This document shows, piece by piece, positions 1-33,063 of a DNA stretch of 64,000 nucleotides. The stretch is from assembly GCA_903919145.1 (NCBI GenBank), contig CAIXGW010000016.1:49367-113366 (forward strand), read 5' to 3'. The translations under genes were made by a program, and so were the position numbers. The stretch is from an uncultured Myxococcales bacterium (GTDB taxonomy: Bacteria > Myxococcota_A > UBA9042). Each line of letters starts with the position of its first letter. Position 1 is the first letter of the stretch. A model generated the notes under the pieces. It had not been told where the DNA came from. It made no database searches and saw nothing but the letters and a program-made list of their open reading frames with translations.

Positions 1-1289
1 GCCAGGCACTGGGCGATCAGCTTGGCCAGGTCGGGATCCACGCCGGGGGCCAGCGACTCGACTTTGGGCGGCGGCGCGTTCTGGTGCAGGTCCCCAAGCT
101 CTTGGGCGGTGCTGGCTTTGAACGGCACCTTCTTGGTCAAGCAGACGTACAGAATGATGCCAAGGGCATAGATGTCGGTGCGTGCGTCGCCCCGCTGGCC
201 CAGCCACTGCTCTGGCGCCATGTAGGTGGGCGTGCCGCGGCCCGCTGAAGTGACCTCCCACGGCACGTTGGCTACCGGCTGCATCGGCTCGTCTGGGCTT
301 GTCTGTGTCTCGTCTACGGCGGTGGCGATGCCAAAATCCATGATCACGGCGCGGCGATGATCTTTGACCAGCATGATGTTGGCTGGCTTCAGATCGCGGT
401 GCACCACACCTGCGCGGTGGGCTGCGCGCAGCCCTTTGCACAGCGGCACGGCGATCTCGCGCAGCTGGTCAGACGTCAGCGGCTCGCCGCGCTTTAGGCG
501 ATCGACCAACGTCTCGCCCTCCAAGAATTCCATGGTCAGGTAGTGGACACCCCCCGCCTCGCCCAGGTCGTAGGTGCGCGCCACCCCGGGGTGATTGATG
601 GCGTGGGCAATAGCCACCTCGCGGCGGAACCGCTCCAGGTCTTCTTCGGTGATGCTGTGGCGGTCGGCAAACAGGGTCTTGAGCGCGACCTTGCGGCGCA
701 GCAGCATGTCTTCACACAGCCACACCGCCCCCATGCCCCCTTCGCCTAGCTTTTGCAGCATGCGATAGCGACCGTTGAGCGGGCGACCAGAGCTCCAGTC
801 AATAGCGCGGATGGCTCCCGGGCGGGCGCGATGGGCCCTGCCCGCAGGCGGCGGCGCCGGTGGCGGAGTGGTGTGCCCGGCCACGTGGGCGCTCTGGGCT
901 TGCAGCGCTGGCGCGGCCGCTTGCGCCGGTCCTGGAGGCCGAGCCGCGGAGGGCTGAGCGGGACCATGCGCGGGCGTCCGCACGGGCGCTGGCTGCGGCT
1001 CTGGCGGTGCGGGCGGCTGGGCCACCGCAGCGGCAGCCAGTGGCGCCGGCGAAACCCGCTGGACTGGCTGTACCGGCTGTACCGGCTGTACCGGCTGTAC
1101 CGGCTGGGCGGGCTGGGGCCCAGGTGGGGGGCGCCGGCCGTGGGTTGGCAGCGTTGGACCGTCAGAATTGGCAGGGCGCGCCAGGGGATTGCGCGGCGGC
1201 GGTCGCCCACCGGGGGGCGGCGGCGCGGCTGGCGGCGGGCTGCCTGGGCGACGCAGTGGCTCTGGACGCGGGGGGTCGTCGCGGCTCAC
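1..1289 (-). CDS. Serine/threonine protein kinase, partial (runs off the left edge)
   Basis: Reverse-strand translation reads GRYRMLQKLGEGGMGAV...HRDLKPANIML...DFGIA...GTPTYMAPEQW...DIYALG; Pro-rich N-terminus; likely GTG start at 1289. Open-ended, so missing from the ORF track. Confidence 0.88.
   Translation of the reverse strand, partial: MSRDDPPRPEPLRRPGSPPPAAPPPPGGRPPPRNPLARPANSDGPTLPTHGRRPPPGPQPAQPVQPVQPVQPVQPVQRVSPAPLAAAAVAQPPAPPEPQPAPVRTPAHGPAQPSAARPPGPAQAAAPALQAQSAHVAGHTTPPPAPPPAGRAHRARPGAIRAIDWSSGRPLNGRYRMLQKLGEGGMGAVWLCEDMLLRRKVALKTLFADRHSITEEDLERFRREVAIAHAINHPGVARTYDLGEAGGVHYLTMEFLEGETLVDRLKRGEPLTSDQLREIAVPLCKGLRAAHRAGVVHRDLKPANIMLVKDHRRAVIMDFGIATAVDETQTSPDEPMQPVANVPWEVTSAGRGTPTYMAPEQWLGQRGDARTDIYALGIILYVCLTKKVPFKASTAQELGDLHQNAPPPKVESLAPGVDPDLAKLIAQCL
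1066..1110. repeat. 9-bp in-frame tandem repeat GGCTGTACC (4 perfect copies plus 1 degenerate)
   Basis: ggctgtaccggctgtaccggctgtaccggctgtaccggctgggcg; encodes a (PVQ)n linker in the kinase N-terminus. Confidence 0.9.
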
Positions 1290-3267: not shown

Positions 3268-4413
3268 ATGAGTGACCTACACGCCATCGCCAATGCCAAT
3301 GATCTGAAACACGCGCTGCAGTCCGGGCAACTGGAACGCTGCGAAATTGGTCCAGTCGACCTGCCGCCCATGGAGGCGCCCGCCGTCCGGGTCAACCACG
3401 TGCGCATGACGGGGACCAAGCTGGTTGGGCTGCACTGCGCCGGCTGGTCGGCCAATCGCTGGCAGGCCCGCGGGGTGCTGTTGCGCGGCAGCCGGCTGGA
3501 GAAGGCAGAGCTGCACCACTGCGACCTGTCCAATTGCCACGGCCAAGAATTGCACTGGCCGGCCAGCAAGTTGTTTGACACTCGGTTTGTAGAGACCCCC
3601 TTGACCAATGCCAATCTTGGCCGGTCAGTGCTGGTCGGCTGCGAATTTGCCCAGTCGGACCTGAACCATGCCAACCTGACGGAGTCGCTGCTGCTTGGCT
3701 GCCGATTCACCGATGCCCGCCAGGGCGGCGCCGTGCTGGACAACATCAACCTGTCTGGCGCAGTGCTGTGCAATGTCGACCTGCGCGGTGCCAACTTGTT
3801 CCGCGCCAGTTTTGCCAATGCCGTGCTGGTGGGCGTGGATCTGCGCGAAGCCAACCTCACCGGGGTCAGCTTCCGCAACGCCGTCATCGTCGACGTCAAG
3901 ACGGATCGCGCCGACCTCAGCGGCACCACCCATCAGGAATTCACCAGCGCCGGCTCGTCGATGATGGAGGCGTTTGAGCGCCTCCGCCACCTCAGCCCTG
4001 ACGTCACCGCCATGATCGCTGCGGCCCTGCTGCTGCGGTCCCCTGGAGCCACCGCCGCGCCAACGGCAGGCAGCAGTTCGGGCCAGAGCAGTGGCGACCC
4101 GCTGGCATCGCTGCTGCGCCTGAACTTTGCCGCCATGGTTCGCGAGCTGCAGGGCCGCGGCGGACCGCAGGAGCTCGGCCAGCTGCGCGTCGAGGGCGAC
4201 CATGTGTTTGCCCGCTCCGTCAGCGGCGAGGAGGTGCGTCTGACGTCGTCTGCCGCCGCCCCGCCACGAGTGGCACCGCAGATGCGCGCCGTCGATCCTC
4301 CTGGGTCTGGCGCTGGTTCAGGCTCGTCGGCCGCCCGCAGCGCCCCGCCGCCCGCCGCGTCGCCGGCTCCGCCTGCCGCAGGTGGACGCTTCTCAGGCCT
4401 TGAGATCGATTGA
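3268..4413 (+). CDS. Pentapeptide-repeat-like protein
   Basis: A(D/N)LxxA-type repeats: TNANLGRSVLVGCEFAQSDLNHANLTESLLLGCRF...DLRGANLFRASFANAVLVGVDLREANLTGVSF. Confidence 0.85.
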   Translation: MSDLHAIANANDLKHALQSGQLERCEIGPVDLPPMEAPAVRVNHVRMTGTKLVGLHCAGWSANRWQARGVLLRGSRLEKAELHHCDLSNCHGQELHWPASKLFDTRFVETPLTNANLGRSVLVGCEFAQSDLNHANLTESLLLGCRFTDARQGGAVLDNINLSGAVLCNVDLRGANLFRASFANAVLVGVDLREANLTGVSFRNAVIVDVKTDRADLSGTTHQEFTSAGSSMMEAFERLRHLSPDVTAMIAAALLLRSPGATAAPTAGSSSGQSSGDPLASLLRLNFAAMVRELQGRGGPQELGQLRVEGDHVFARSVSGEEVRLTSSAAAPPRVAPQMRAVDPPGSGAGSGSSAARSAPPPAASPAPPAAGGRFSGLEID

Positions 4414-30094: not shown

Positions 30095-31447
30095 ATGAAG
30101 TTGCTCCTTGCCGATCCCCCAGAGATGTTCCTGCAAGGGCAGGGCGCTACCCGTCAGGTGCAGCCGCTGGGCTTGGCCTACGTGGGGGCGGCGGTGGCCG
30201 ACCTTGCGCAAGTGCGCTTCTTGCTTCCAGATACCCGCGCCTATCTCGGCAGCGACCCGTGGCAGGAACTGGCCGACGCCATCGCGGCCGAGCGCCCCGA
30301 CGTCCTGGGACTGACCGCGGTGACCGCCAACTACGCCGCGGCGGCCCGGCTGGCCGAGGTGGCGCGCCAGGTCCGGCCCGGCCTGCTGGTGGTCCTGGGC
30401 GGGGTGCACGCTTCGACCGAGCCCGAGGCGGCGCTGCGCGGGGCCCCGGCCGTGGACCTGGTCGTTCGCGGCGAGGGCGAGCAGACCCTGCGCGAGATCC
30501 TGATGGCTTGGCAGCAGCAAGGCCTGCGCCGCCCCCAGTGGGCCGACATTCCCGGGGTGTGGTACCGCGACGGCGACCAGGTGCGCGCCGCCTTGCCGCG
30601 GCCGCCCAGCGCCGACCTGGACGCCTTGCCGCTGCCACTGCGCGAAGGATTGGTGTGGCAAGCCGATGTCCAGCCGGCGTTCTACCAAGCGCTGATTACC
30701 CTGCGGGGCTGCCCGTACCAGTGCATCTACTGCGCGGTGCCCTCCCTTGACAGTGCCCGGACCCGCTACCGCTCTGCCGCCAACGTGATGGCAGAGGTCG
30801 ATCAGCTGCGAGACCGCTATGGCGCCAACTACCTTTTCTTTCACGATAGCGTCTTTACCCTGCACCGCCGCAGGACTCTGGAGCTGGCGGAGCTGCTGGC
30901 TCAGGCGCCCCGACCCACGCCATTTTGCATCCAGACGCGCGCCGACCGTTTGGACCAGCAGGTGTTGGACGCCTTGGTCAAAGCCGGGCTGCACCAGGTG
31001 TTTTTTGGCATCGAGTCGGGGGACCCCTACTCCCTAGAGCAGATCCGCAAGGCCATGCCGCTGGCCGTGATTCGCGACGCCGTCCACCGGGTTCAGCAGG
31101 CCGGCGTGCGCTGCAGCGGCTTCTTCATGATTGGCTGGCCGTGGGACAACGAGGCGAGCATCGCCCGATCCTTGGACTTTGCCGAGACGCTGCCCCTGGA
31201 CGCCATCAGCCTGTTCTCTGCCACGCCGCTGCCGGGCACCGAGCTGTGGCGCCTCAGTCAAAACCGCGCGGTGCCAAGCTCGGTGGACTTCCGCCAGCCC
31301 CAGGTCAACGTGACCAGCATGGCCGATGGCGTCTATGCCCAGGTCTTTGCCGCGGCCAGTCAACGCGTTGAGCAGTTCAACCAGCGGCAAATGGCGCTGC
31401 GCTGGACGGCGCCGACCTGGCAAACCCTGCACCAGCAGCCAGGGTAG
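30095..31447 (+). CDS. B12-binding-domain radical SAM protein
   Basis: N-terminal B12-binding-like region (QPLGLAYVGAAVAD...VVLGGVHAS), CPYQCIYC (CxxxCxxC), FFGIESGD. Confidence 0.92.
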   Translation: MKLLLADPPEMFLQGQGATRQVQPLGLAYVGAAVADLAQVRFLLPDTRAYLGSDPWQELADAIAAERPDVLGLTAVTANYAAAARLAEVARQVRPGLLVVLGGVHASTEPEAALRGAPAVDLVVRGEGEQTLREILMAWQQQGLRRPQWADIPGVWYRDGDQVRAALPRPPSADLDALPLPLREGLVWQADVQPAFYQALITLRGCPYQCIYCAVPSLDSARTRYRSAANVMAEVDQLRDRYGANYLFFHDSVFTLHRRRTLELAELLAQAPRPTPFCIQTRADRLDQQVLDALVKAGLHQVFFGIESGDPYSLEQIRKAMPLAVIRDAVHRVQQAGVRCSGFFMIGWPWDNEASIARSLDFAETLPLDAISLFSATPLPGTELWRLSQNRAVPSSVDFRQPQVNVTSMADGVYAQVFAAASQRVEQFNQRQMALRWTAPTWQTLHQQPG

Positions 31448-31479
31448 GTGCCTGCGGTTCCAAGGCGGGCCTTCTCTTG

Positions 31480-31703
31480 GAGGGTGTTTGCGTTTCAACC
31501 CGGCTGCTGAAGCAGCGGGCTATCATGACGCCGTCTGCCTCCGCAGACGGCCAGACCGGGCCGCCCGTGAAGACGGGCGGCGCGATGATAGCCCGCCAAT
31601 TCATTGGCCGGGCGAATTCTTGGCAAGCCACAGAGCTCGCAATTGCTGGTAAATCTCGAGTCCGCGCCCGCCGACGGCACGGAGGTCTTATGTAAACACC
31701 CTC
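31480..31703. mobile_element. MITE-like palindromic element with 10-bp terminal inverted repeats
   Basis: GAGGGTGTTT (31480-31489) and AAACACCCTC (31694-31703); internal 12-bp arms GCGGGCTATCAT/ATGATAGCCCGC enclosing two 9-bp hairpins; no ORF. Confidence 0.5.
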
Positions 31704-32795
31704 TTACGCACGGTCGCCAAAGGGCAAGATCAATTGCCTAGAGTGCTTGGGCTCTTTGACTTCTGGGCCCAGGCCGCTGGCCGACACCCCCAGCAGGCGG
31801 ATGGGGCGACGGCCGACTTCGGTGGAGGTCCTGAGCAGCTCCAGCGCAGCGGCCACCAGCTGGGGCGAGTCGTCGGTGGCGGCGGCAAAAGTCCGGCTGC
31901 GGGTGATCGAGGTAAAGTCGGCGTACTTGACCTTGAGGGTCAGCGTCCTCGCCGGCTTGCCCAGGCGGCGCAGGTCGGCCGCCACCTCGTCGGCCAGGTC
32001 AGCGGCCAAGCGCCCCAGCGCCGCAGCGTCGGTGGAGTCGTGGGCCAAAGTTGTCTCAGAGCCAACGCTTTTTCGCTCATGGTGGCTGCACACCGGGCGG
32101 TCATCGCGGCCGTGCGCCAGCTCGACCAGGAAATGGGCAAAGGAGCCGACAATGGCCTCTACATCGCTGAGCGGCGCCGCGCGCAGGTCGGCGGTGGTGT
32201 GAAACCCCGCGGCAGTCAAACGCTTGGCAGTCACTGGCCCGACCCCCCACAGCCTGTCAATGCTCAAGCGTGCCACAAACTCGCCGACCCGGTGCGGCGG
32301 CACGACCACCAGGCCGTTGGGCTTGTGGAGGTCGCTGGCCACCTTGGCAATGAACTTGTTGGGGCCGACTCCGGCCGAGGCGGTCAGCTGCAGCTCGCTG
32401 CGGATTCGCTCTTTGAGGTGCATGGCAATGCGGGTGGCCGAGGCCTCGCCCAGCAGGTTCTCGGTCACGTCGAGGTAGGCCTCGTCTAGAGACAAGGGCT
32501 CCACCAGCGGCGTAGCCGACAGGAAGATCGCTCTGATCTGCCTGCTGATGTCCGCATAGTGGCCGATGCGCGGCGTCAGAAACACCGCCTGGGGGCACAG
32601 CCGCTGGGCCTTGGCGCAGCTCATCGCCGAGCGCACGCCGTACTGCCGCGCCAGGTACGAAGCCGAGCACACCACCGCTCGGCTGGCCGGATCACCACCG
32701 ACAATCAGCGGAACATCGCGCAATTCCGGGCGATCGCGCTGCTCTACCGAGGCGTAGTAGGCGTCCATGTCGATGTGGATGATCTTGCGCTGCAT
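31704..32795 (-). CDS. dinB: DNA polymerase IV (Y family)
   Basis: MQRKIIHIDMDAYYASVEQRDRPEL, SLDEAYLDVTENL, SAGVGPNKFIAKVASDLHKPNGL, LWGVGPVTAKRL. Confidence 0.95.
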   Translation of the reverse strand: MQRKIIHIDMDAYYASVEQRDRPELRDVPLIVGGDPASRAVVCSASYLARQYGVRSAMSCAKAQRLCPQAVFLTPRIGHYADISRQIRAIFLSATPLVEPLSLDEAYLDVTENLLGEASATRIAMHLKERIRSELQLTASAGVGPNKFIAKVASDLHKPNGLVVVPPHRVGEFVARLSIDRLWGVGPVTAKRLTAAGFHTTADLRAAPLSDVEAIVGSFAHFLVELAHGRDDRPVCSHHERKSVGSETTLAHDSTDAAALGRLAADLADEVAADLRRLGKPARTLTLKVKYADFTSITRSRTFAAATDDSPQLVAAALELLRTSTEVGRRPIRLLGVSASGLGPEVKEPKHSRQLILPFGDRA

Positions 32796-32854: not shown

Positions 32855-33063
32855 CTAGGAGCCTGTCGGGATAATCCCCGCCAGGCTCCGTGCCAGTTTG
32901 CGTCTTTTCAGTCGGGCAAGAAATATTGGAAGTGAATTCCAATATTTCGCCCGCCTGGGCGCTCGCAAGACGATCGCCCTAGGACCCTGTCGGATGCTGC
33001 AGCTGATTCAATAGTTTTAACGAGTTATCCGTAGGCGACGGCATTACTCCGACAGGCTCCTAG
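32855..33063. mobile_element. Composite MITE-like element (three copies of a 15-16-bp terminal repeat)
   Basis: CTAGGAGCCTGTCGG (32855-32869) and its perfect inverse CCGACAGGCTCCTAG (33049-33063); second direct copy CTAGGACCCTGTCGGA at 32979-32994; AT-rich internal hairpin 32920-32948. Confidence 0.55.

Follow-up and report, generated by a model that had tools for sequence, protein, structure and literature searches.

Known MITEs are 70–300 bp long, contain no ORF, have terminal inverted repeats and short direct duplications, and are intergenic and dispersed, with deletion variants; those of IS families include Chunjie of Geobacter uraniireducens (235 bp) and QMITE2 of Coxiella burnetii (PMC10969869). 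REPs, and their inverted pairs in REPINs, are short structured dispersed repeats with covarying stems, found with RAYT genes (PMC3116915, PMC3733652, PMC6006769). Nesting of repeats has precedent: BOX, RUP and SPRITE repeats insert into one another (PMC10969869), and REP dimers lie inside longer palindromes in Anabaena variabilis GTAG-15 and H. neapolitanus CGTC-1, in a passage that traces the outer palindrome to no named IS (PMC3733652).

Here we describe a 224-bp palindromic block adjoining dinB in an uncultured Myxococcales bacterium, within an analysed stretch of 64,000 nucleotides (the window). The block is very probably a non-autonomous MITE with IS5-family ends, carrying a captured REP-like pair. 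It shares the properties of known MITEs listed above, and differs from Chunjie and QMITE2 (PMC10969869) in its IS5-family ends, its TTA target and the REP-like pair inside. Its inner units share with REPs and REPINs a short, structured and dispersed character, inverted pairing, covarying stems, and a position flanking RAYT-like and IS200-like genes (PMC3116915, PMC3733652, PMC6006769); unlike them, each unit has two stem-loops, and the pair is embedded in a DDE-type MITE. As in GTAG-15 and CGTC-1, so far as the passage on these goes (PMC3733652), a REP pair is nested within another repeated palindrome. All of these kinds (MITE, IS5 element, REP and REPIN) are already known, and so is the nesting of REP dimers in other palindromes (PMC3733652); in open-access papers we found no report of an IS5-type MITE with a REP pair inside.

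Results

The features of the locus are as follows (window coordinates).

30095–31447, plus strand: convergent neighbour, B12-binding radical SAM protein
31477–31479: left target flank TTG (TTA at the same place in sister copies L011, L012 and L015)
31480–31703: whole MITE copy, 224 bp, a left-arm deletion derivative of a family of about 281–286 bp, from comparison with own-genome copies
31480–31495, plus strand: left terminal inverted repeat GAGGGTGTTT (31480–31489) plus GCGTTT, from comparison with L011–L016
31499–31551, minus strand: left REP-like unit, 53 nt (outer stem 31499–31519, inner stem 31530–31551); covariance model R1, 77.0 bits
31552–31559: 8-bp spacer between the two inverted units
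31560–31612, plus strand: right REP-like unit, 53 nt (inner stem 31560–31581 with GAAG loop; ATAG foot; outer stem 31592–31612 with TTCA loop); covariance model R1, 78.9 bits, and pair counts
31613–31693, plus strand: MITE right arm, conserved across aligned copies, without a conserved ORF
31694–31703, minus strand: right terminal inverted repeat AAACACCCTC (family end TTATGTAAACACCCTC)
31704–31706, minus strand: TTA target copy, which is the dinB TAA stop codon
31704–32795, minus strand: dinB, DNA polymerase IV, 363-aa ORF; NCBIfam NF002677, 417 bits

The terminal repeats, the 12-bp arms (GCGGGCTATCAT at 31515–31526, ATGATAGCCCGC at 31585–31596), both 9-bp hairpins (loops ctcc and gaag) and the dinB stop at 31704–31706 are all present where a first-pass annotation of the sequence had placed them. 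A 10-bp terminal repeat is by itself weak evidence, since perfect 10-bp inverted pairs with a span of 150–350 bp occur 69 times in the 64-kb window. The block stands above chance by its folding energy, which is far under that of shuffles (RNA z −8.1, DNA z −6.2; 0/200 shuffles as low), and, decisively, by its repetition elsewhere in the genome. A separate palindrome, GGAGCCTG...CAGGCTCC, lies upstream of dinB at 32858–32889.

A BLAST search of the bacterium's own genome (G000; 7.0 Mb, 404 contigs) with positions 31460–31720 gave a best match elsewhere of E = 1.5e-99. Near-whole elements were matched on contigs C350 and C351 (97%), C208, C150, C49 and C105 (84–86%) and C12 (78%), and parts of the element on C185, C26, C300 and C44. 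Including the window copy, 12 places match well beyond the REP unit. The matches on C350, C351, C185 and C26 run out at contig borders within the repeat and are probably halves of about two copies; as several matches are such contig-end halves, the total is about ten loci rather than 12. Full copies start GAGGGTGTTTACGTTTGAAC, end TTATGTAAACACCCTC and measure 281–286 bp. Pairwise identity between the copies compared is 73–99%, and this divergence of 1–27% indicates that the spread took place over time. Family members contain no transposase and no conserved ORF. The mobile, MITE-like palindromic unit proposed in the first-pass annotation is thus supported by the dispersal of about ten copies that share their ends, and a single-copy sequence is excluded. 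Both the 224-bp and the 281-bp element are absent from the relatives searched, and only the REP-like core is common to them. Scanning the genome collection with that core returned four stretches, from two MAGs whose titles read Myxococcales and Deltaproteobacteria. In the bacterium's own genome, C374:14912–14994 matches the right arm at 78% and may be another decayed copy.

Compared with its sisters, the window copy lacks approximately 60 bp adjoining the left terminal repeat, between GAGGGTGTTTGCG and TTTCAACCC, and keeps both ends of the element. TTT is common to both break points, as in short-homology deletion.

Two sister copies (L011 and L012) have TTA at both flanks, and the flanks of the remaining copies are mostly TTA, TAA, CTA, TAC or TTG. 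At the window copy the flanks are TTG and TTA, an imperfect duplication; the left TTG is probably a mutated version of the TTA duplication. On the plus strand the dinB stop codon TAA reads TTA, exactly at 31704–31706, and the element adjoins dinB because its TTA target is the complement of this stop. The TTA target therefore explains the contact with the stop codon, which the first-pass annotation had recorded as a position. Three more copies touch ORF stop codons (L015, 107 aa; L014, 286 aa; L018, 306 aa). In a GC-rich genome, TTA and CTA are expected to lie mostly at stops and to be rare outside them; if so, this would account simply for the contact of such elements with stop codons. As the target TTA is retained on insertion, dinB is intact. 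The DinB C-terminal QLILPF is preserved, at a position that we take to correspond to the Pol IV clamp-binding motif, and it matches the QLPLPW with which two genus orthologues end (RQLPLPW). The dinB orthologues of the genus sit in a different neighbourhood from the window dinB, and no empty site was seen among them.

The end pattern TAGAGGGTGTTTRCRTNNGA (≤3 mismatches) was found at 30 places in the bacterium's own genome, against 6 for the reversed pattern used as a control. Nine of these are ends of a second, IS5-type element, which has in common with the MITE the ends GAGGGTGTTTACAT (14 bp) and the TTA target; the sequence common to both amounts to only about 14–17 bp per end. Five of the nine (C132, C179, C221, C359 and C384) start GAGGGTGTTTACATTCGACC, the longest fragment entering an ORF that starts MSSPQPESEVG...KRAPGGGRKPSFD, of which KRAPGGGRKPSFD matches KRAPGGGRRPKFD in the N-terminus of an IS5 transposase in the genome G003. 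The other four (C29, C148, C178 and C246) start GAGGGTGTTTACATACAACC and encode a transposase C-terminus on the other strand (NF033580, E = 4e-6; as a fragment, below the whole-protein cut-off). The protein of this right-end fragment is 75% identical to a nearly complete 406-aa IS5-type transposase in G003. All nine ends stop at contig ends, as expected of a multi-copy IS uncrossed by the assembler; the middle of the IS is unassembled, and so the transposase is seen in this genome only as end fragments. An intact relative is present in the genome G019 (L126:789–2055): it is 1267 bp long, has the same ends and TTA at both flanks, and encodes a 389-aa transposase (DUF4096 + DDE_Tnp_1). A longer IS sharing these terminal repeats, for which the first-pass annotation had suggested a search, is thus represented both in the bacterium's own genome and in G019. 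Relative to the IS5-family IS (NF033580; DUF4096 + DDE_Tnp_1), the MITE has the same ends and target, lacks a transposase gene, and differs in its inner sequence. Given that its ends are common to an IS5-family IS with a transposase, movement of the MITE by an IS5-family transposase is the best reading.

The centre of the palindrome consists of two inverted 53-nt units belonging to a separate REP-like family, a level of organization beyond the first-pass annotation. Each unit comprises a 9-bp stem with a GNAG loop, a linker ending ATGATAG, and a second stem with a TTCA loop, the latter formed of 3 + 5 pairs around one bulged base. Among 44 distinct units, 95.6% of stem cells are paired, and 12 of the 17 stem pairs have changes on both sides; the units were picked partly for pairable arms, which inflates the percentage paired and favours structure, while the variety of pair types stands. 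Double-change cells number 97, against 20.7 expected by shuffling, and the covariation score is 0.405, against 0.130 for shuffled units; the signal is destroyed when the pairing partner is slid. Compensatory changes, whose absence together with a single copy had been named as refuting the first-pass proposal, are therefore present. A covariance model of the unit gives 58 matches at E ≤ 0.01 in the bacterium's own genome; about 55 units besides the pair described here are dispersed there. The foot of the second stem is a nearly invariant ATAG, which resembles but is not the GT[AG]G canonical for the 5′ stem foot of REPs (PMC6006769, PMC3733652); the units are therefore named REP-like rather than REP.

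Within this genome, the inverted pair with 8-bp spacing was seen nowhere but in the 280-bp element. The tree of the units is weakly resolved; in it, the left units of the MITE form one group and the right units small separate groups. The solo units compared fall apart from the MITE units, and none is of the MITE left type. The separate grouping of the MITE units would fit a single capture and later spread as cargo.

Several other arrangements of such units were observed. A second inverted-pair family in the same genome (L146 and L147, on C386 and C50) has similar stems, no ATAG foot, and two copies. In the relative G009, a pair of inverted units of the same kind underlies an element of approximately 150 bp; this element has five copies (L139, L140, L143, L144 and L145) and a sharp right border, and no IS5-type ends were seen on it. 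Four REP-like units in one orientation (at 3469, 3737, 10061 and 12196) occur in L026 (G000:C190:1–14749) beside a YhcG-type nuclease, an McrBC component, an AbiEii protein and an AAA ATPase, in what looks like a defence island. Integron attC sites were considered because the units recur at intervals in short contigs, and were dropped because tyrosine-transposase genes have such units on both sides, inverted relative to each other.

Discussion

The most likely course of events is that the DDE transposase of the IS5-family element in the same genome recognises the MITE ends and moves the MITE in trans. Insertion would be into TTA (or TNA) targets, with 3 bp duplicated. The window copy would have inserted at the TTA that is the dinB stop on the other strand, presumably with duplication at that site, and would afterwards have been shortened in its left arm by about 60 bp. 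The inverted REP-like pair was most likely captured by the MITE a single time and has probably been a passenger since. The nested build, a REP-like pair within a MITE, is the mildly unusual part; the element itself is real and essentially an ordinary genomic parasite, apparently without host function.

At two loci the units accompany tyrosine-transposase genes. On C267 (L022), units at 660–712 (minus) and 1147–1199 (plus) surround an ORF at 732–1136 encoding a 134-aa IS200-like transposase (Y1_Tnp, 65 bits), which is closer to IS200 than to RAYT (54.2 vs 15.4 bits). On C300, units flank a RAYT-like gene (REP_Tyr_transpos NF047646, 75.2 bits; cut-off 80). At both loci the flanking units are inverted relative to each other in the way seen in the MITE, and the other Y1_Tnp loci of this genome have no units. 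The C300 region (L018, 1–1130) holds the RAYT-like gene between long inverted repeats, tandem REP-like units and a MITE right half, which ends at the stop codon of the 306-aa ORF.

It is conceivable, if unlikely, that the element is doubly mobile, with a DDE transposase acting on double-stranded DNA at the outer ends and a tyrosine (HUH) transposase acting on single-stranded hairpins of the inner pair. If so, two unrelated transposition systems would share one vehicle, and the inner unit would represent a REP class not yet described, with two stems and ATAG at the foot.

That the block is primarily a REPIN, in which the inverted REP pair is the mobile single-stranded unit of a RAYT/IS200-like tyrosine transposase and the outer repeats are incidental, seems distinctly improbable. 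The units flanking the C267 and C300 genes, and the recurrence in G009 of inverted pairs without IS5-type ends, are in its favour; however, besides the restriction of the 8-bp-spaced pair to the 280-bp element and the separate grouping of the MITE units described above, conservation runs through both arms up to the IS5-type ends. Very improbable, in our judgement, is a decayed larger transposon in which a RAYT gene formerly lay between IS5-type ends. The C300 gene, flanked by REP units and with the MITE right half and end just beyond, would fit such an ancestor, but its left flank has no MITE left arm within the contig, and recombination between REP units explains this tandem-duplicated mosaic equally well.

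The first-pass annotation had offered a bidirectional terminator or a structured RNA as alternatives to a mobile unit. Whereas the mobile unit is upheld, these are at most possible side effects: no classical terminator (a stem followed by a T-run) is present within the palindrome on either strand, no promoter was found in it, and an Rfam search matched no family to the element, its sole hit (mir-16, E 0.095) lying outside the element and being due to chance. An influence of the element on the 3′ ends of both convergent mRNAs is possible. An RNA role as the reason for the element, in which it would terminate transcription from both sides or stabilise the 3′ ends of the dinB and radical SAM mRNAs, is suggested by the location between convergent genes, the strong fold and the proposal that REPs act at mRNA 3′ ends (PMC3733652), but is very improbable given the missing terminator, the searched genus members that have dinB yet no element match beyond the REP core, and the unrelated genes beside the sister copies.

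With the IS5-type MITE as the preferred reading, an odd palindrome beside a DNA-repair gene falls into a familiar class of elements, and a partner enzyme and a target can be proposed for it. The presence of the pair inside it suggests that DDE-type MITEs can disperse REP-like repeats as cargo, alongside the RAYT route.
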